Assembly (NCBI GenBank): GCA_029262315.1 | Contig: JAJCZP010000161.1 | Span: 1 to 35,344, forward strand | DNA length: 35,344 nt | Origin: Deltaproteobacteria bacterium | GTDB lineage: Bacteria > Desulfobacterota > Binatia > UTPRO1 | Direction: 5' to 3' | Shown: positions 4,613 to 33,890 of the stretch, piece after piece | How the letters are laid out: every line of letters begins with the position of its first letter | Numbering within the stretch: the stretch's first letter is position 1 | Position numbers and translations under genes: made by a program | Notes under the pieces: model-generated | What the model saw: the letters and a program-made list of their open reading frames with translations, nothing else | Told to the model about the DNA's origin: nothing | Databases searched by the model: none

Positions 4613-6976
4613 CTATTGCTCGACGCAGTAGATGTGACGCGTGGTCACGTTGCAGGGCGAGGCGATGCCCGGCTTCCAGAACCCGAAACCCGTGTTCGCC
4701 ACCAGGCTGGCGCCCGTCGAGTCGGGCGCCGCGTCGTCGGTCCAATCGTCACATGTCTCGGCCACGGTCGCCGGCGCGATAATGTCGGCCGCGCCCGTGA
4801 TGACAGTACCGTCACGGTACGTGCCGTCGCCCGATTGCCAGATGCCGCTCTGCAGCCGCGTGGCGGCGGTCGGCGCCAACGCCGTCGCGATGATCTGTTC
4901 TTTTGTGCCAACGACCTGCCCATCGGGACGCACATAGGTCTGGCCGTCGGCCAGGACACTCGCCGCCGCCGTCGTTGTCGTCGGCAGGAGCGCCTTCACG
5001 GCCCCTGCCCCGGCCGGCTTCTCTGCGGTGCACTTGGTATCGGGGTCGTCGACACCCACCAGAAACGGCGTATTTGTCATGTAGATCATCTTGCCTGGCA
5101 CCCCCGCCGGCACCAACTCTGCGTTCTTGCTGTTACCAAAACAGTAGACGGATCCGGTGGTGACGACGTTGCAGCCGAATCCGCCCTCCGCCGTCCAACT
5201 CGTCGGCCCTTTGTGCGCATGCCCGGTCGAGAGCAGCCCCGACACGGTCTGGGAGTAGTCGGTACAGTTGGGCGTCACCGTCCCGGTCGGCCCCGTTCCC
5301 GTCATCACTTGCGGTGAGTTCTCGTTGGTCGCACCGTCCTCGCCGAGTTCAACGGTGTTGAAGATCTCGTTGGCGCTGAACAGATCGGCGAGCTCATCCG
5401 CAAACGGCTTGCCGTCCATGCGGACGAAGCCGCGTGCCGGCGCCAGACGATCCGAGATGGTCTGCACGGTCGAAGACAGAAAAGCGGTGAAGCCGTCGTC
5501 GGTCAGGTTGTTGATGCCCGCCGCAGTGGCCAGCTGATTGCACTCGTCGTCGTAGGGCGCCGTGGGATCGTTCGGATCGCCGGCACCGAGCGTGACGTCG
5601 AATCGCTCCTGAGTCGAAAACACGAGATTGAAGGTCTGCGGGGCGAAGTATGCCTCGACGGCCTGCGACTCGCCGGTCGACACGGTGCAATCATGGAAGC
5701 CGCCGCCGCAGGCGCCATCCCATACTTGAAAATAGGAGTCCGATCCGTTGACGGTGCGCGCATGCAATTCGACGGACGGCCCACCCGGAAACGCGGCCAC
5801 GCACGTGGGCCCGCTCGGGCCGCAATCGATGCCGAGCGGCGTGGACGTCACCGTCCCGGCCCCGCCCCCTCGCCTGGTGACGCCGATCAGGATCTCGCCT
5901 TCGGCCGCGCAAAACGGGCTATGAAGCTCGTGCCCAACCGATTGCAGGAGCGCTTCCGCCCGCGGAGCCTGGAAATGCACCATCTCCTCGGCGAGGCACG
6001 ACAGCTGCTGAAACATGCACAGGCGATAGTCGGAGGGCGCATCGATCGTGTTCACGCCGACGTCGAGGCAGCGACCCGCGAGACCATCCACGTGCATGCC
6101 CGCATCGGCGCGCGCGTCGGCGTGGATTTCGTCGCACCGCTTGGTCAGCGACTTCTCCAGCTTCGCCGCCGCCTTCGCCACGTTCGCAACGAGTTCCTTG
6201 TCGCACTTGGCCGTGGCCTTATCGAGGCACTTCTGGTCGCCCGGCTTCGTTTGTACACACTTGAAGTGGGCACCAACGCACCTCTGCAAACTCTTCAGCT
6301 TCGAGGCAATGAACTTCGCGCCGGCCTTCTTGGCTTCCTTCTGGCATTTGTCGAGCGCCTTCCCGAGACCCGGGTCACCGACGTCGCCGCCGGTTCCACC
6401 AAGGTCGCGGAGACACGTTCCGGGACGCACCCCGATCGCGAGCGCGTCGGCAAAGCCGCCGGCACGCGGCATGTGGAGGTTGAACGCCTCCTCGGCCTGA
6501 CACTCGTGTTGCTCCCGGACGCAGGCGGCGATCGAGGCCACATCGGTGAGAGAAATCCCGAAGTCGTCGTTGCACTCCGTCGCCAGTGCGTCGAAACCGA
6601 GGCCGAGAGCACCCGTGAGATCCGCCGGGTCGGTCGGACACCTCTTGACGATGGCATCGGTGAGCTTGGTGCGCTCCTTGGCGACCTTGCCGGACTCCTT
6701 GGCGCATTTTGCGATCGCCTTGTCGAGGCACTTCTGGTCGCCGGGCTTGGTCTGGATGCACTTGAAGACTGCGTCGTAGCACTTCTCGAGGCTCTTCAGG
6801 GTCTTGCTCGTAAACTTGGCGCCGGACTTGGTGAAGGTGGCCTGGCACTTGTCGGCCGCCTTGGCGGCCGCAGGATCGGGCAGGTTGCCGGCACCGACTG
6901 GCGACGCGACCCCAAGAGCAACGAGCAGCAGCGCCAGGGCCGTCCTGCAGATATCCGTGTGGTGCGCCAGCCGCAT
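4613..6976 (-). CDS. Secreted Cys-rich module/repeat/DUF1554-like protein, downstream paralogue
   Basis: A 787-residue exported protein. Order: signal peptide (1-30); Cys-rich helical module 1 (about 42-175) and module 2 (208-345), each with the same nine-Cys spacing around KC...KCYDAVFKC.QTKPGDQKC; a beta 'bacterial repeat' domain (about 362-450, GTVTSTPLGIDCG...); then two related C-terminal domains (about 470-615 and 628-787) resembling DUF1554, a C-lectin/endostatin-like fold, ending with CDDWT and IYCVEQ. No enzyme motif is seen; adhesion or ligand binding is possible by fold only. The ATG at 6976 lies one base after the TAG of the upstream paralogue (TAGGATG), so translation is probably coupled. 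An upstream extension of the open frame overlaps that paralogue and is rejected. Confidence 0.85.
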   Translation of the reverse strand: MRLAHHTDICRTALALLLVALGVASPVGAGNLPDPAAAKAADKCQATFTKSGAKFTSKTLKSLEKCYDAVFKCIQTKPGDQKCLDKAIAKCAKESGKVAKERTKLTDAIVKRCPTDPADLTGALGLGFDALATECNDDFGISLTDVASIAACVREQHECQAEEAFNLHMPRAGGFADALAIGVRPGTCLRDLGGTGGDVGDPGLGKALDKCQKEAKKAGAKFIASKLKSLQRCVGAHFKCVQTKPGDQKCLDKATAKCDKELVANVAKAAAKLEKSLTKRCDEIHADARADAGMHVDGLAGRCLDVGVNTIDAPSDYRLCMFQQLSCLAEEMVHFQAPRAEALLQSVGHELHSPFCAAEGEILIGVTRRGGGAGTVTSTPLGIDCGPSGPTCVAAFPGGPSVELHARTVNGSDSYFQVWDGACGGGFHDCTVSTGESQAVEAYFAPQTFNLVFSTQERFDVTLGAGDPNDPTAPYDDECNQLATAAGINNLTDDGFTAFLSSTVQTISDRLAPARGFVRMDGKPFADELADLFSANEIFNTVELGEDGATNENSPQVMTGTGPTGTVTPNCTDYSQTVSGLLSTGHAHKGPTSWTAEGGFGCNVVTTGSVYCFGNSKNAELVPAGVPGKMIYMTNTPFLVGVDDPDTKCTAEKPAGAGAVKALLPTTTTAAASVLADGQTYVRPDGQVVGTKEQIIATALAPTAATRLQSGIWQSGDGTYRDGTVITGAADIIAPATVAETCDDWTDDAAPDSTGASLVANTGFGFWKPGIASPCNVTTRHIYCVEQ

Positions 6977-6977
6977 C

Positions 6978-9371
6978 CTACTGCTCCGCACAGTAGATGC
7001 GCCCGTTTGCGCTGCACGCGATGGGGTCGACGTTCCACCAGCCAACCTCGATGGCACCGGCAATACCTCGGTGACCGGTGCCGCCCGTGTCCGTCCAATC
7101 GTTACAGGTGCTCGCCACGGTGCCGAGATCATCGATGTTCTCCTGCCCCGTCCAGGCCGTGCCGGTCAGGTAGGAGCCGTTGCCTAGTTGCCACACCCCG
7201 CTGTCGAGCCAGGGATCCAGCGCCGACGGCGCCTGGGCGACGGTGACCAACTGCGCGCCCGTGCCGATGACGTAGCCATCGGGCCGCACATACGTCGTGT
7301 TGTCGTCGAGATGCGTCGATGCCGCAACGGTCGTAGTGGCCAGGAGCGCCTTGACCGTACCCGTACCCGCGGGCTTGTCGACCTCGCACTTGCCATCTGG
7401 GTCGTCGACGCCGATGGCGAGGTGGGTGTCCGTCAGGTAGAGGACCTTGCCGTTCTTCGGCGGGGGAACGATCGGCGTCGTCTGGGTGTTCATCCAGCAA
7501 AAGACTCTCGCGACCGGGCTGTCACACCGAACCGACCCGACGAACGTGAACCCAGGTCCGGTGCGATGGGTTCCACGTGAGAAGAAATCGTTACTGTCGA
7601 TCGACGACCAATCGAGGCACGTGGAGAGCGAGGTCGTTCCGCTGAGGTTCATTCCGGTCGCAAACGTGGACGAGAAGTCGAACCCGCCCATCTCGTCGTA
7701 CAGAAGCGGATTGAACACCTCTCGTTGCGCGGTCATGTCAGCGGGCAGATCTCCGAACACCTTCCCGTCCGGCAGGATGAAGCCGCGCGCCGATCCCAGG
7801 CGCGTAAGGGCGCTGGAGACGCTCGACGAGAGAAACGCGACGTACGCGTCCCCGCCGCCATTGTTCACGCCGGCCGCGGTGGCGAGTTGGTTGCACGCGT
7901 CGTCGTACGGCGACGTGGGATCGTTCGGGTCGGCCAGCCCAAGGTTCATGGCGACGGTCGTCGAGCTGGCAAAGACGAGGTTGTGATCGAGCGCCCCGAA
8001 CGTGGCATCGACCACATGCGTCTGGTCGGTCACCACGTCGCAGTCCCAGAACGGGCCCGTGCAACTCGCCCCACCCCAATGGTTGAACTGCGCATTCGAT
8101 CCGTTCGTCGTCCGCGCTTCGAGCTTGACGGCGGTGCTGACCGGGAAGCTCGCGCCGCAGGTGCTCCCGCAATCGATACCTGCCGGGATCGAGGTCACGG
8201 TCCCCGTGCCCGCCCCCTTCTTGTTGACGATGACCGCAAACTGGCCCGGCGCCGGTGTGAAGCTCGGCGTCGTCGCGGGTGTCGCCGTCACGGACGGCGT
8301 CACCGTGGCCGTGGAGGTCGGCGTCGCGGTGGGGGTCGGGGTGGGACCACAGACCCCGCGGTGCAACGTGTGCCCGACCGTCTGCAACAGCGCATCCGCA
8401 CGCGGTGCCGTGGCGCCGAACAGATCATCGACCTCGCACTCGTTGCGACGGACGATACACTGTGCGTAGTCGCCCATGGTGGCAAACGCCGGGATCCCGA
8501 GTTGTTGGCAGATCGCGCCCAAGACGCTGACGTTCATTGCACTGACCGGGAGGAGGGCGGGGAAGACTGCCAAGCAGCGCTTGCCGAGCGCGGCCGCGAG
8601 CTTGGCCTCGAGCTTCGGGATGTTGGTGACGAACTCCTTGTCGCACTTCGCCTGCGCCTTCGCGATGCATGCGGGATCGTTCGGTTTGGTCTGGGTGCAC
8701 TTGAAGAGCGCACCCACACACTTCTGGAGACTCTTCCGCTTGCCGGCCACGAACTTCGCGCTCGCCTTCTTCACCTGCTTCTGACACTTGTCGAGGGCCT
8801 TCCCCAGCCCCTTCGGATCACCAACGTCACCGAGCCCAGTCCCCTGGAGGCACGTCCCAAGGCGGATCGTAATCGGCTCCTGGATGGCGAACCCGCGCGC
8901 CCGCGGCATCTGGGCGCCGAACATCCGCTCGGCGTGACACTCCGACAACTCCCGCACGCAGCCGGCGATCGCGTTCACCCCTGAGAGCGGGAACCCCGCA
9001 TCGGTACAGGTCGCGGCCAGCGCGTTGTAGCCGAGTCCGTCGTCCGACATGAGGTCGGCGAAGCTCGTGCACTTCTTCTGAATGGCCCCGAGGAGCTTGG
9101 CCTCGTTCTTCGGCCGCTTGATCTGCACTTCCTTGGTGCACTTCGCCGCCGCCTTGTCGATGCACTTTTGATCGCCCGGCTTGGTCTGCACACACTTGAA
9201 GACCGCGTCGTAGCACTTCTCGTGATACTTCAGGGTCTGACTGGCGAACTTCGCGCTCGCCTTGTTGATGGCGACCTGGCACTTGTCGGCGGCCTTGGCC
9301 GCCGCCGGGTCCGGAAGTGCAGAGGCGCCAGCCGGGCCGCTGCTGATCACAGCAAGCCCCAGACACATCAC
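6978..9371 (-). CDS. Secreted Cys-rich module/repeat/DUF1554-like protein, upstream paralogue with interrupted signal peptide
   Basis: About 797 residues from the first start after the amber codon. Domain order matches the downstream paralogue: Cys-rich module 1 (about 28-162), module 2 (193-330), a T/P-rich linker (GPTPTPTATPTSTATVTPS, 342-376) absent from the paralogue, a bacterial repeat domain (378-460), and two DUF1554-like domains ending IYCAEQ. All nine module cysteines are kept in both copies. The natural start is probably the ATG at 9404, preceded by AGGAG 8 nt upstream and giving MIRPTLSILA, but codon 11 is TAG (9374-9372); the same frame then continues VMCLGLAVISSGPAGASA, the rest of a signal peptide. 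Starting at GTG 9371 or ATG 9368 leaves a leader without basic residues. It is therefore a recent nonsense mutation, a sequence error, or a readthrough case. Confidence 0.75.
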   Translation of the reverse strand: MMCLGLAVISSGPAGASALPDPAAAKAADKCQVAINKASAKFASQTLKYHEKCYDAVFKCVQTKPGDQKCIDKAAAKCTKEVQIKRPKNEAKLLGAIQKKCTSFADLMSDDGLGYNALAATCTDAGFPLSGVNAIAGCVRELSECHAERMFGAQMPRARGFAIQEPITIRLGTCLQGTGLGDVGDPKGLGKALDKCQKQVKKASAKFVAGKRKSLQKCVGALFKCTQTKPNDPACIAKAQAKCDKEFVTNIPKLEAKLAAALGKRCLAVFPALLPVSAMNVSVLGAICQQLGIPAFATMGDYAQCIVRRNECEVDDLFGATAPRADALLQTVGHTLHRGVCGPTPTPTATPTSTATVTPSVTATPATTPSFTPAPGQFAVIVNKKGAGTGTVTSIPAGIDCGSTCGASFPVSTAVKLEARTTNGSNAQFNHWGGASCTGPFWDCDVVTDQTHVVDATFGALDHNLVFASSTTVAMNLGLADPNDPTSPYDDACNQLATAAGVNNGGGDAYVAFLSSSVSSALTRLGSARGFILPDGKVFGDLPADMTAQREVFNPLLYDEMGGFDFSSTFATGMNLSGTTSLSTCLDWSSIDSNDFFSRGTHRTGPGFTFVGSVRCDSPVARVFCWMNTQTTPIVPPPKNGKVLYLTDTHLAIGVDDPDGKCEVDKPAGTGTVKALLATTTVAASTHLDDNTTYVRPDGYVIGTGAQLVTVAQAPSALDPWLDSGVWQLGNGSYLTGTAWTGQENIDDLGTVASTCNDWTDTGGTGHRGIAGAIEVGWWNVDPIACSANGRIYCAEQ

Positions 9372-9404
9372 CTAGGCCAAGATGGATAGCGTGGGTCGAA
9401 TCAT
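9369..9404 (-). other. Signal-peptide start with in-frame TAG
   Basis: ATG at 9404 with AGGAG at proper spacing opens MIRPTLSILA, then TAG at 9374-9372, then VMCLG... in the same frame. A single base change at the TAG (for example to CAG, TGG or TCG) would restore a normal ~29-residue signal peptide ending GASA-LPDPAAAKAADKC, matching the paralogue's NLPDPAAAKAADKC mature start. Confidence 0.75.
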
Positions 9405-9659: not shown

Positions 9660-11102
9660 TCAGCCGATCGCGGCGGTTCCGTCGGACTGGCTCACGAGGC
9701 CACCAACGATCGTCAGTTCGCGATCCACGGCCGCGACCAGATCGTGGAGGTCGGGCAGCGCATCCCAATCGGCGTTGAAGCCCCAATGGAGCTTTCCATC
9801 GTAGCTGAACAACGCGATCCCGAGCGCCTGGCCTGAAAACAGGGGAACCAGCGGATAGCACGCACGCATGCACGCCCCCCCGACATAGACCGGCCCCGGG
9901 GGGCCCGGCACATTCGTGACCACGAGATTGTAGGGGCGCGACAACGCCGACAGACGAGCGAACTGGACGACCAACGTCGTGAACGTCACGTCGCTCAGCG
10001 ACTCCACCGTCTCCATCCCGACCGCCTGCCGTGATTGCTTCGCCTGGCGCGCCTGCTCGATCGTACGGCGCAAACGCGGCAGGAGATCCCGCTCGTCGAG
10101 CGGCAGGCGAACGACCATCATCGCGACCCGGTTGCCGACGTCACGTTGCGTGCTGGCGTTCCGAATGTTGACAGGGACCATCACCCGAAAATCGGCTGGC
10201 ACGGGATCGACACCCCGGCGATGGAAGAAGCGCGCCAGCGCCCCCGTGATGACCGCCAAGACGACGTCGTTCACCGTACCGCCGTACTTGCTGCGCACTG
10301 CCTTGATCTGCTCGAGGTCCGCCACCGTCCAGTCGAAACGCCGGTACGGTCCAATGTCGACGTTCAGCGGTGAGGGCGACGCTGGGGCGAGTCCAGCACC
10401 GAACGCCTCGGCGACACCTGCGGCGCGATGGCCGATCGACGACAGCGCTGTTTGCGGTTGCGCGGCGGTACGCAGCAATCCGAGCGTGCCTCGCACCGGC
10501 GCCGTCACCCGATGCCCGAGCTCCGCGAGGAACAACTCGAGTGGCGTCGGCGCCGCGCGGGGACTCCACCGCGGTGGGGGCTCGGTGAGGGCAGGGTCGG
10601 GGTCCGGCGTCGGGCGCATGATCGAAGCCGACTGCTGCACGCTCCCGACCCCGTCGATCATGCAGTGGTGCGCTTTCTGGATGATGGCGAAGCCGCCCCC
10701 TTCCAGCCCCTCGACGACCCACATCTCCCAGAGCGGCCGGTTGCGGTCGAGCTCTTGCGACATCACGCGGCCAGCGAGCCGCTTCAACTGGCGATCATCA
10801 CCTGGCTTCGGCAGGTGGGTGTGCCGAATGTGGAAGTGCAGATTGAACCGGGGGTCGTCGACCCACACCGGCTGGCCGAACACGGGTGTCCACGCCAGTC
10901 GTTGCCGGAAGCGCGGAAATCGGTAGAGCGCCGCCTCCATCATCGTCCGCACCTGCTCGATGTCGACGCTCCCGTCCGACGCCACCAGCGGCCCGTCCTC
11001 GAACAGCGCCACGGAACCGATGTGCATGTGACTGTCGCCGTCCTCGATCTCGAGGAAGCTGTCGTCGAGCGCGGAGAGTCGTTCGGAGTGCGTATAGGGC
11101 AT
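9660..11102 (-). CDS. Wax ester synthase/diacylglycerol acyltransferase (WS/DGAT)
   Basis: A 480-residue bifunctional acyltransferase of the bacterial WS/DGAT family, which joins acyl-CoA to fatty alcohols or diacylglycerol to make storage wax esters or triacylglycerol at the inner membrane. The catalytic motif HHxxxDG is present as HHCMIDG (145-151). Other family marks are ALDDSFLEIE near the start, NRPLWEMWVVEGL (121-133), NDVVLAVITGAL, FRVMVPVNIR and LVVTNVPGPPGP. Length fits the family (about 450-490). The ATG at 11102 follows AGAGGAGG with 7-nt spacing. It lies 25 nt downstream of an alpha/beta hydrolase gene on the same strand, a likely operon for neutral-lipid turnover. Confidence 0.93.
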   Translation of the reverse strand: MPYTHSERLSALDDSFLEIEDGDSHMHIGSVALFEDGPLVASDGSVDIEQVRTMMEAALYRFPRFRQRLAWTPVFGQPVWVDDPRFNLHFHIRHTHLPKPGDDRQLKRLAGRVMSQELDRNRPLWEMWVVEGLEGGGFAIIQKAHHCMIDGVGSVQQSASIMRPTPDPDPALTEPPPRWSPRAAPTPLELFLAELGHRVTAPVRGTLGLLRTAAQPQTALSSIGHRAAGVAEAFGAGLAPASPSPLNVDIGPYRRFDWTVADLEQIKAVRSKYGGTVNDVVLAVITGALARFFHRRGVDPVPADFRVMVPVNIRNASTQRDVGNRVAMMVVRLPLDERDLLPRLRRTIEQARQAKQSRQAVGMETVESLSDVTFTTLVVQFARLSALSRPYNLVVTNVPGPPGPVYVGGACMRACYPLVPLFSGQALGIALFSYDGKLHWGFNADWDALPDLHDLVAAVDRELTIVGGLVSQSDGTAAIG

Positions 11103-25960: not shown

Positions 25961-28207
25961 CTACGGCAACACGATCTTAAAAACGTTGCTAGTGGTCTGG
26001 GCCGCGACGAAGATGTTCCCGCTCGCGTCGATCGCGATCTCCTCGGGGAAATCGAGCGAATTGGTCCCATCGCCGGTGCTGTCAATGATCTCCGTGATCG
26101 TCCCGCCCGGCGTGATCTGGAAGACATTGTCGCTCGTGCCGCCCGACACGTACACGTTTCCGCTTCCGTCATCTACGTGGATGTTGAAGGGCCCGTCGAG
26201 TGCGCTGATCCCATCGCCGGTGTTGTCGATGATCTGGGTGATCGTACCGCCCGGCGTGATCTTGAAGGCGTTATCGCTGGCGACGCCCGATACGTAGACG
26301 TCGCCGCTCGCGGCAACGGCGAGACCGAAAGGCTGGCTGAGCGTATTCGTGCCGTCGCCGGTCGCGTCGATGATCTGGGTGATCGTCCCACCGGGTGTGA
26401 TCTTGAAGGCATTCGAGGAGAACGAGCCCGCGACATAGACGTTGCCGCTGCCGTCCAGGTCGATGGCCAGCGGATTGCTGAGTGTATTGGTGCCGTCGCC
26501 GGTGCTGTCGATGATCTGGGTGATCGTCCCGCCCGACGTAATCTTGAAGACGTTATCGCTGCCGATAGCCGATACGTAGACGTTACCGCTCGCGTCGACG
26601 GCGACGTGGAACGGACTGAGCAGGGAGTTGGTACCGTCACCGGTGCTGTCGATGATCTGGGTGATCGTCCCGCCCGGCGTGACCTTGAAGACGTTGCCGC
26701 TAGTGACGCCCGGCACATAGACGTTCCCGCTGGCATCGACCGTAATATCCTCGGGACCGATGAGCGCGTTGGTGCCATCGCCGGTGCTGTCGATGATCTG
26801 GGTGATGGTCCCGCCCGGCGTGATCTTGAAAGCGTTGTTGCTTCCTCTCCCCGCGACGTAGACGTTGCCGGCACCATCGACGGCCAGGCCTTCGGGGGCG
26901 GTCAAGATGTTGCCGGAATTGTCACCGTTCGCGTCGATGATCTGCGTAATGATCTTCGAGGTCGGGGTCGCGGTCGGCGTCGGTGTCAGCGTCGGGGTAG
27001 CAGTAGCCGTGGTCGTCGCGGTTGGCGTGACGGTGGCCGTCGGAGTGGTCGTGGCAGTCGGCGTCAGCGTAGCCGTGACGGTGGCGGTCACGGTCGGTGT
27101 GGCGGTCACGGTCGGTGTCGCGGTCACGGTCGGTGTCGCAGTCACGGTCGGCGTCGCGGTCACGGTCGGGGTAGCAGTCACGGTCGGCGTCGCGGTCACG
27201 GTCGGCGTCGCGGTCACGGTCGGGGTAGCAGTCACGGTCGGCGTCAGCGCTGATGCGGGGGTCGCCACCGGGACGCAGAGCTCACGCGCGCGCCGGACGT
27301 TCAGGCTCTCCGTGCCGAACTGGTTGTCGACGAACACCGTCTGGTTCACCCGCGGGCCGGGCTTGGTCAGGTAGCACATCAGCCGCGCGGCGCCGTCGAG
27401 AATGCCCTCGCCGGCTTTGTCGACTGGCAGGCAGAGCCGGTGCGGCTTTTTCACGTCGGTCGTGGTGGGCCCGGTGGTGAACTGATCCTCGACCGGCACG
27501 TCGGCTACGCGCCGGCGGTCGCCGCGGACGCGGTAGCACTGGTAGTGATCGACCACGGGCGGCGCGAGCGGTGCCGGTGGGCCAGTGAGGCTCTTGGCCG
27601 TCGGCACCAGCAGGCGCTCGGGGCGCTGGAGATCGAGCAGGAGCGTTCCAAACTGATCCGTGACTTGCTCATCGACGAAGCGCTCAAAGCGCCGGCCGTC
27701 ACGGCGGATCTCATAGCCGACCAGATGATCCGGATCGTCGGGGGCGGTCGGGTCCTCGTTGTCCTTGTTGACCGGTGCGCAGAGGATCTTCGGGCGGCGT
27801 ACCTCGATGTTGTTCGCCCCGAAGTCATCGGTCAGGTTCAGAGAGAACCGGTCGAAAGGCTGACGGTCAACGTCGTAGCACTGGAAGTGGTTCAGGGAGG
27901 GAGCCGGCGCCGCGACGCTGCAGGTTGAGCCCGTAAAGCCTGGCTGACAGTCACAGACGAAGGAGCCCGGCGTGTTGGTGCAGATGCCGCCATTTAGGCA
28001 CGGCAGGAGCGCGCACTCGTCGATGTCGGTGTCGCACGTCATGCCCTGAAAACCCGAAACGCACTCGCACACGCCACTGACGCAGGTGCCGTTGACGCAT
28101 GTGAAGTCAGCGGGGCACGTCGGCGGAAACTGCGCTACCGCCGCCCGCGGGGTGAGGAGGACGATGACGAGCATCGGGACGAGAGCGAGCAGGTGGCGGA
28201 CGCGCAT
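25961..28207 (-). CDS. Secreted EGF/DUF7450-like/T-P linker/seven-bladed propeller protein
   Basis: A 748-residue exported modular protein. Order: signal peptide (1-26); EGF-like domain 1 (about 30-58); calcium-binding EGF-like domain 2 (61-96, DIDECALLPCLNGGICTN...); two DUF7450-like modules (106-205 and 219-314); nine tandem TPTVTA units (322-375) and a looser T/P stretch to about 417; then seven 47-48-residue repeats (418-748), each near TITQIIDSTGDGTN...VDASGNVYVSG..SDNVFKITPGG, as in NHL/SMP-30-type propellers. Seven repeats give a full propeller. The ATG at 28207 follows GGAG with good spacing; the frame extends to 28231. It is probably cell-surface or extracellular. Function unknown; EGF plus propeller suggests binding rather than catalysis. 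Confidence 0.88.
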   Translation of the reverse strand: MRVRHLLALVPMLVIVLLTPRAAVAQFPPTCPADFTCVNGTCVSGVCECVSGFQGMTCDTDIDECALLPCLNGGICTNTPGSFVCDCQPGFTGSTCSVAAPAPSLNHFQCYDVDRQPFDRFSLNLTDDFGANNIEVRRPKILCAPVNKDNEDPTAPDDPDHLVGYEIRRDGRRFERFVDEQVTDQFGTLLLDLQRPERLLVPTAKSLTGPPAPLAPPVVDHYQCYRVRGDRRRVADVPVEDQFTTGPTTTDVKKPHRLCLPVDKAGEGILDGAARLMCYLTKPGPRVNQTVFVDNQFGTESLNVRRARELCVPVATPASALTPTVTATPTVTATPTVTATPTVTATPTVTATPTVTATPTVTATPTVTATPTVTATVTATLTPTATTTPTATVTPTATTTATATPTLTPTPTATPTSKIITQIIDANGDNSGNILTAPEGLAVDGAGNVYVAGRGSNNAFKITPGGTITQIIDSTGDGTNALIGPEDITVDASGNVYVPGVTSGNVFKVTPGGTITQIIDSTGDGTNSLLSPFHVAVDASGNVYVSAIGSDNVFKITSGGTITQIIDSTGDGTNTLSNPLAIDLDGSGNVYVAGSFSSNAFKITPGGTITQIIDATGDGTNTLSQPFGLAVAASGDVYVSGVASDNAFKITPGGTITQIIDNTGDGISALDGPFNIHVDDGSGNVYVSGGTSDNVFQITPGGTITEIIDSTGDGTNSLDFPEEIAIDASGNIFVAAQTTSNVFKIVLP
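25964..26956 (-). repeat. Seven tandem 141-144-bp repeats encoding propeller blades
   Basis: On the plus strand the segment starting gatctgggtgatcgt recurs at 26087, 26231, 26372, 26513, 26654, 26795 and 26939. The steps are 141 bp except 144 for the first and last (one extra codon). The units are highly similar at the DNA level, so the propeller seems to have grown by recent in-frame duplication. Confidence 0.9.
27083..27244 (-). repeat. 18-bp minisatellite, nine units (TPTVTA)
   Basis: Nine contiguous 18-bp units, each encoding TPTVTA, with third-position variants (gcggtc/gcagtc; ggcgtc/ggggta/ggtgtc on the plus strand). The variants alternate in a pattern suggesting multi-unit duplications. 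It forms the start of the T/P-rich linker before the propeller. Confidence 0.9.
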
Positions 28208-28449
28208 GGCGGTCTCCTTTTCGAGAGCCAAGAATCAGGCAAAGGAGCTACTTCGCGCGGATTCGGAATCCGAGTCAAGCAAAGAGTGCCAACCTGGGGC
28301 GCTCCGGATCGCGCGACAGCGTGGTAAACGCAGCACGCTCTTGGTCGAGACTGCAGCAGGCAGAGTCGCGCGCTGGCGATTGGCAGCATCCGCTATCACC
28401 CTCGGGAAGAGCTGCTCCACGAAGTGAGTCTCGCGGCGACTGCGCCCGC

Positions 28450-33377: not shown

Positions 33378-33890
33378 ATGCGGATCGCCGCATCGTGCCT
33401 CGTCGTGGGTCTCCTGGTCGAGATCGCGCTGCCGGCGCACTCCGGGCAACTCACGTGTCAGCGCGACACCCTGACTGCGTCACCGGAATCCATCGCGCGG
33501 CACCCGCCCGGGTTCTCCCCCTCCCCCAATCCGAACGTGCTGATGTGTCAGCGGACGATCGGCGGCGCGATGCGCCAGCTGTTCGACGCCCGCGCCACTG
33601 CACTCCGGAAGTGCTGGAGCGCTCGCTACAAGGGAGGACACGCCAACCAGTGCCCGGATCCAGGCGACACCAAGGCGGAAGCGAAGATCGCCAAGGCGAC
33701 ATCGAAGGCACGGGCGAGGATTTGCGAAGCGTGCGGAGGTGCCGACCGGGACTGCGGCGGCGGCGATGACCTCACGACTGCCGAGATCGGCTTTCCCCAG
33801 CCGTGCCCTGACGTGGGGGACTGCGCGGGAGCCGTCACGACCCTCGACGACCTGGTCGACTGCGCCACGTGTGACCGATTTCGACACTGA
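33378..33890 (+). CDS. Small secreted Cys-rich protein, single helical Cys module
   Basis: A 170-residue exported protein: signal peptide 1-23 (ending AHSG), then a helical Cys-rich part (CQRTIGGAMRQLFDARATALRKCWSARYKGG...KAEAKIAKATSKARARICEACGGADRDCGG) and a tail FPQPCPDVGDCAGAVTTLDDLVDCATC. The arrangement (paired Cys helices, 'KI.KA..K....C', then 'C....dlv.C..C') is a distant relative of the modules in the 4613-9371 pair by my reading. ATG 33378 follows AGGAGG with 8-nt spacing. No known function. The protein stops shortly after CATC; it may be complete. Confidence 0.75.
   Translation: MRIAASCLVVGLLVEIALPAHSGQLTCQRDTLTASPESIARHPPGFSPSPNPNVLMCQRTIGGAMRQLFDARATALRKCWSARYKGGHANQCPDPGDTKAEAKIAKATSKARARICEACGGADRDCGGGDDLTTAEIGFPQPCPDVGDCAGAVTTLDDLVDCATCDRFRH

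Follow-up and report, generated by a model that had tools for sequence, protein, structure and literature searches.

A paired ten-cysteine helical module at the ends of unrelated exported proteins in uncultured Binatia, a candidate retention tag

SLH domains are tandem folded domains found at the N or C terminus of unrelated Gram-positive exoproteins, which they retain non-covalently. CHCH twin-CX9C proteins are disulfide-stapled helical hairpins. Plant alpha-hairpinins are also disulfide-stapled helical hairpins and have a palindromic cysteine spacing (PMC7191063). In Myxococcota, the MYXO-CTERM/myxosortase system directs dozens of proteins in each genome to the surface by way of type II secretion (PMC11980579), and laminin, fibronectin and, in part, factor H are ligands of the DUF1554-containing Len proteins of Leptospira (PMC2063517).

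Here we analysed a 35,344-nucleotide stretch of DNA (hereafter, the window) from a Deltaproteobacteria bacterium (GTDB lineage Bacteria; Desulfobacterota; Binatia; UTPRO1; assembly GCA_029262315.1, contig JAJCZP010000161.1) that encodes a pair of cysteine-rich modules. The likeness of this pair to MYXO-CTERM would lie in the recurrence of one terminal tag on exported proteins that are otherwise unrelated, dozens of them in a genome, in surface display and in type II secretion. However, MYXO-CTERM is a short C-terminal motif with one cysteine, a transmembrane helix and an arginine tail, and it is cleaved, whereas the pair consists of two folded domains of ~155 residues, with ten cysteines each, located at either end of the protein. 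Module proteins with a C-terminal pair end in the module, without a transmembrane helix and arginine tail; TIGR03901 was not matched in the window's genome, and no control genome matched it either. With SLH domains the pair shares its placement at either end of unrelated exoproteins, an analogy in placement only: the pair matches no Pfam model, SLH included, has a fixed number of two copies, appears disulfide-rich and belongs to a Gram-negative-type lineage.

Tandem genes A and B and their tails

Two tandem paralogous reading frames with two modules each, as proposed by the initial annotation, are both real and lie on the minus strand, ~255 bases behind a wax-ester synthase/DGAT gene (9660-11102) of the same strand. 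The features of the locus, together with a third module protein of the window, are as follows.

6978-9404, minus strand: gene A, predicted secreted protein with two ten-cysteine modules, a Pro/Thr-rich linker, an InlB-like repeat and two endostatin-like (DUF1554) domains
9372-9374, minus strand: in-frame TAG, codon 11 from ATG 9404, within the predicted signal peptide of gene A; translation MIRPTLSILA, stop, VMCLGLAVISSGPAGASA
8820-9290, minus strand: module A1 (ten cysteines)
8337-8795, minus strand: module A2 (ten cysteines)
8247-8348, minus strand: Pro/Thr-rich linker of A, from the sequence (PTPTPTATPTSTATVTPSVTATP...)
7989-8246, minus strand: InlB B-repeat-like beta domain of A, by profile (approximate limits)
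7485-7988, minus strand: endostatin-like (DUF1554) domain 1 of A (approximate limits)
6981-7457, minus strand: endostatin-like (DUF1554) domain 2 of A (approximate limits)
4613-6976, minus strand: gene B, 787 aa, paralogue of A; its ATG lies one base past the stop of A
6383-6856, minus strand: module B1 (ten cysteines)
5897-6355, minus strand: module B2 (ten cysteines)
5639-5896, minus strand: InlB B-repeat-like beta domain of B (approximate limits)
5132-5638, minus strand: endostatin-like (DUF1554) domain 1 of B (approximate limits)
4616-5107, minus strand: endostatin-like (DUF1554) domain 2 of B (approximate limits)
33378-33890, plus strand: third module protein of the window, 170 aa from ATG, with a signal peptide and a single divergent short-type module (33537-33875)

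Both proteins share one domain order, that is, a signal peptide, two modules, one InlB-like beta repeat and two endostatin-like domains, with the Pro/Thr-rich linker present in A. Judging by their signal-peptide-like N termini, both products are probably secreted. The TAGGATG reported to join the gene copies was read at the junction, GAG CAG TAG G ATG, as the stop TAG of A (6980-6978), one base and the ATG of B (6976-6974), an arrangement that suggests translational coupling of the two genes.

Apart from its in-frame TAG, gene A is intact. ATG 9404 is the sole start with a good ribosome-binding site (AGGAG a few bases ahead), and the TAG follows ten codons on; joined across it, the peptides on its two sides would form an ordinary signal peptide. 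The reading frame that begins at GTG 9371 (6978-9371, minus strand; alternative start ATG 9404) encodes 797 aa and gives the protein a short signal peptide that lacks a charged start. Gene A is silenced or is read from the weaker start, unless the TAG base is variable or wrong in the assembly. Pyrrolysine read-through was considered and is not supported: no pyrrolysyl-tRNA synthetase was found above the cut-off in the search, the sole signal being a weak general synthetase match below it.

A direct Pfam search of the tails of A and B was negative for DUF1554. A tail profile (A4), in turn, matched four loci, L083-L086, with E-values of about 1e-59 to 1e-61; L083, L085 and L086 lie above the DUF1554 (PF07588) cut-off of 27.5 bits, and L084 lies just under it. 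Foldseek comparison of the tail model (pLDDT 74) with the PDB retrieved endostatin (1dy2, E 1.2e-5, probability 1.00, TM 0.70 on target length; 1dy1, E 1.5e-5). The DUF1554-like call made from the sequence was therefore right, by way of intermediate profiles (three of the four loci scanned pass the cut-off) and the endostatin fold match, and the tails appear to belong to PF07588 through those intermediates. In genomes G002-G005 the tail profile recovered proteins in which one or two modules are followed by two DUF1554 domains. What had been described as a beta repeat domain behaves as a single divergent InlB B-repeat would: the profile region that covers it also matches loci assigned by Pfam to PF18998. 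On the evidence of fold and intermediate profiles, the C-terminal tails share the family of the Len proteins (PMC2063517), from which A and B differ in that two DUF1554 copies are fused behind an InlB-like repeat and a module pair, and in that Pfam misses their tails directly. Len-type binding of host proteins cannot be assumed for this organism.

Elsewhere in the window, positions 25964-28231 (minus strand) encode a secreted-looking protein that combines an EGF-like domain with DUF7450 repeats and SBBP/NHL propeller repeats; its EGF and teneurin-type profile matches are unusual in bacteria.

Cysteine pattern and predicted fold of the module

Each module contains ten cysteines, and not the nine initially counted. 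In protein B they occupy residues 44, 66, 73, 83, 91, 113, 135, 152, 159 and 188 of B1 and residues 211, 233, 240, 250, 258, 281, 303, 320, 327 and 356 of B2, and once C10 is counted in, the module extends over about 155-165 residues instead of ~135. The closely spaced tandem recurs in related proteins: in 18 pairs from the window's own genome, aligned over 370 columns, nearly all cysteines are invariant, with few exceptions in the second module. The sequence is highly divergent except at the cysteines and at a few Lys, Gly and Pro positions, and the invariant residues are mostly Cys, Pro, Gly, Lys and Arg.

The 110 modules that fit the pattern have the spacing C1-x21-C2-x6-C3-x(7-16)-C4-x(6-8)-C5-x(20-28)-C6. 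The gaps C1-x21-C2 and C2-x6-C3 are invariant in all 110, which excludes chance, the C4-C5 gap is 7 in 103 of them, and the C5-C6 gap is 21 in 69, 22 in 16 and 25 in 14 modules. The spacing is thus palindromic (C-x21-C-x6-C-loop-C-x7-C-x21..25-C), and length varies mainly in the C3-C4 loop. The module pair was modelled confidently by AlphaFold as an all-helical structure (pLDDT 91.5, pTM 0.89), in which the variable C3-C4 loop forms the turn that joins helices 2-40 and 45-76. The simplest reading of the palindromic spacing is an antiparallel helical hairpin closed by three putative disulfide rungs, C1-C6, C2-C5 and C3-C4; numbered along the modelled sequence, the proposed partner positions of B1 sum to 85, 85 and 84. 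The remainder of each module would form a second, small helical subdomain with two more disulfides: C7 and C8, which are jointly lost in four of five cases, would form one, and C9-C10 would by elimination form the other. Cysteine covariation alone was also tried for assigning the pairs and was set aside, with only C7-C8 being clear and the joint absence of C3, C5 and C9 in a short subfamily failing to resolve; palindromic spacing is used in its place. These joint losses may reflect loss of the outer rung together with misalignment of C4/C5, and only so do they fit the simple pairing.

No region of the module matched Pfam, NCBIfam or PHROGs above the curated cut-offs. A sequence-profile search of the PDB gave vinculin as the best match (E 0.017 over 39 residues), and this match (E about 0.02) was rejected as helical composition. 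Foldseek of the module-pair model returned a best E of 0.19, with TM below 0.25, against the PDB and nothing significant against the viral library BFVD. The earlier impression that the module cannot be assigned to a known domain therefore held, with all of these searches negative or at the level of noise and confident alignment to a characterised family absent. By the libraries searched, the paired module, queried as one unit, is an undescribed domain. What the module has in common with CHCH twin-CX9C proteins and plant alpha-hairpinins is palindromic cysteine spacing across an antiparallel helical hairpin; it differs in having three predicted rungs, far longer helices (~40 and 32 residues in the model) and an extra helical subdomain, and, with no sequence or fold match to disulfide-stapled hairpins, the likeness is one of analogy only.

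Distribution, pairing and cargo

Profile searches revealed the module throughout its own family. With protein B as the sole query, 36 matches were found in the window's genome, and with the pair profile at least 56 (E<=1e-3); the other five family genomes gave 16-37 pair-profile matches each, so that the family range is 16-56; being obtained by searching, these counts are minimum values. Elsewhere in the class, matches were fewer, weaker and patchy (22 of 38 genomes positive in all, own included). In a phylum-wide sample of 198 genomes, five were positive, all of the same class, and none of the 191 outside the class. No plasmid match for the module was found. A mobile or viral origin was also considered; the sole IMG/VR match (L172) lies on a phage-like contig, was left unscored by the module profile and is spurious.

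Anatomy was established on 84 module proteins, taken from five family genomes and contig JADYZW010000035.1 of a relative (MAG: Deltaproteobacteria bacterium isolate SJ588). Exactly two modules are present in 73 of them and one in 11; apart from two exceptions, the second module directly follows the first, 0-19 residues further on. Position classes and signal-peptide calls, obtained with a heuristic signal-peptide finder, placed the pair C-terminally in 33 proteins, N-terminally behind a signal peptide in 25 and internally in 6, while 9 consist of little else and 11 are the single-module proteins. Of the complete two-module proteins, 56 have 200 or more residues outside the pair; the pair is terminal in 50 of these, against 9.6 expected under random placement.

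The pair thus occurs alone as well as with many cargos besides DUF1554. Cargo domains include disintegrin-like and DUF4215 repeats, FG-GAP, DUF5122 propeller, RTX, BNR and GDSL-like domains, DUF7948 with SBBP propeller, di-haem (MauG) peroxidase, laminin-G-like domains, glucose/sorbosone dehydrogenase (GSDH) with PKD, lactonase, RHS/teneurin, beta-helix and weak cohesin/dockerin matches. Because these domains are unrelated, no single catalytic function accounts for the pair. Therefore, in place of the two-gene secreted system first suggested, we find a genome-wide paired domain at the ends of many cargos, of which the DUF1554 tails are one.

Several individual proteins are unusual in their own right. 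A 1509-aa protein of the window's genome (L028:1565-6091) has a module pair followed by ~31 stretches that match the disintegrin profile (PF00200, E 5e-155), probably a cysteine-rich repeat that mimics the profile. An N-terminal pair sits on an RHS/teneurin-like protein of >2100 aa that is open at the locus end (L158:4557-11000). Pairs are fused to MauG-type di-haem cytochrome c peroxidases at L051:4431-8510, where the protein additionally has a beta-propeller region, and at L156:4949-9694. One further module-pair protein (L134:3731-5821) shows weak cohesin and dockerin matches in one chain, each just below the cut-off.

In a tree of 124 modules, the labels 'first' and 'second' need 10 changes, compared with a shuffled mean of about 41 per label. 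A1 and B1 group most closely with first modules of other proteins, A2 and B2 with second modules. These separate lineages indicate that the pair is an old unit, which arose once or a few times and has moved as a whole. Its placement switched between the N and the C terminus at least seven times on the tree, in which many inner branches are weakly supported.

A candidate retention tag and its alternatives

The net charge per 100 residues is +10.3 in the first 80 residues of the module, the predicted hairpin, and -8.0 in the remainder; whole pairs average +2.0 and cargo -5.7, and in 62 of 64 proteins the pair is more positive than its cargo. The best explanation for stable domains that come as a fixed pair, at one end or the other of many unrelated exported proteins, is a retention or address tag. 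It would work in the manner of SLH domains or MYXO-CTERM, but has no defining sequence feature in common with either. We see about an even chance that the pair is such a tag, hitherto undescribed and terminal, which keeps its cargo at the cell surface or in the matrix. As evidence for it we count the at least 56 matches in one genome, the fixed pairing, the separate lineages of first and second modules, the terminal placement, the unrelated cargo, the cysteine pattern suggestive of disulfides, the charge split, the confident all-helical model and the presence of GspD. On the other side, protein ends are where new domains are gained most easily, which can also produce a terminal position, and there are proteins with a single module or with the pair inside.

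From the sequence, we would expect a tagged protein to leave the cytoplasm through Sec by means of its signal peptide. In the oxidising periplasm each module would fold as a two-helix antiparallel hairpin with rungs C1-C6, C2-C5 and C3-C4, followed by the small helical subdomain with its C7-C8 and C9-C10 disulfides, and the two modules would pack as a fixed unit at the protein end, often with a Pro/Thr-rich linker to the cargo. The Lys-rich hairpins may then attach to part of the envelope or matrix of the producer itself; an anionic polymer is the probable ligand, proposed from the basic character of the hairpin. The bound tag would keep and display the cargo at the cell surface. In A and B the cargo so displayed would be the two endostatin-fold domains, as an adhesin-like head similar to the Len proteins of Leptospira.

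The terminal, linker-separated position of the pair and its union with enzymes and adhesin-like domains would also suit an outward-facing, CBM-like binding domain that sticks released proteins to a plant, mineral or host polysaccharide or matrix, and CBMs, too, occur at either end of proteins. We consider this unlikely: the cargo is too varied for a single substrate, the near-invariant two-copy layout and the 16-56 matches per family genome look like housekeeping retention, and the invariant residues show no conspicuous aromatic binding platform.

A folding cap or export determinant for a secretion machinery such as type II, rather than an anchor, would explain why the pair adjoins a terminus in most proteins, and GspD is encoded in the genome. 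Cleaved export tags, however, are normally tied to one end, whereas the pair is N- or C-terminal with multiple switches, and nine proteins consist of little but the pair, which makes an export role improbable in our view. Shuffling alone could have spread modules that act as spacers without a binding role, as might be suggested by their high divergence everywhere but at the cysteines and at a few Lys, Gly and Pro positions; we regard this as very improbable, given that first and second modules keep separate identities across cargos and that the charge split between hairpin and remainder is systematic. Least probable of all is a metal-storage or redox domain whose cysteines bind a metal or redox cofactor: twenty conserved cysteines per pair and the di-haem peroxidases among the cargos speak for it, but there is no CxxC cluster and no invariant His, and both the palindromic spacing over a hairpin and the disappearance of C7 together with C8 are in keeping with disulfides in a protein that is exported, so that, of the disulfides or metal binding to which cysteine retention was at first attributed, the former gains support and the latter becomes less likely.

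To return to the retention tag, a broader reading is possible, though we hold it only tentatively: that this lineage of uncultured bacteria retains much of its exoproteome, at least ~50 proteins in the window's genome, by anchoring it to the envelope through a domain of new fold. This helical tag of two domains, with twenty cysteines arranged in disulfide ladders, could sit at either protein end and would have its own receptor or polymer ligand. At minimum, the analysis yields a domain model that would annotate some fifty 'hypothetical' genes in such a genome. If the tag reading is right, an abundant unannotated domain gains a definition, a predicted fold and a testable role, and its disulfide ladder would offer a new, very stable, end-independent display tag. 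It would also explain how an uncultured lineage might display dozens of different enzymes and adhesins.
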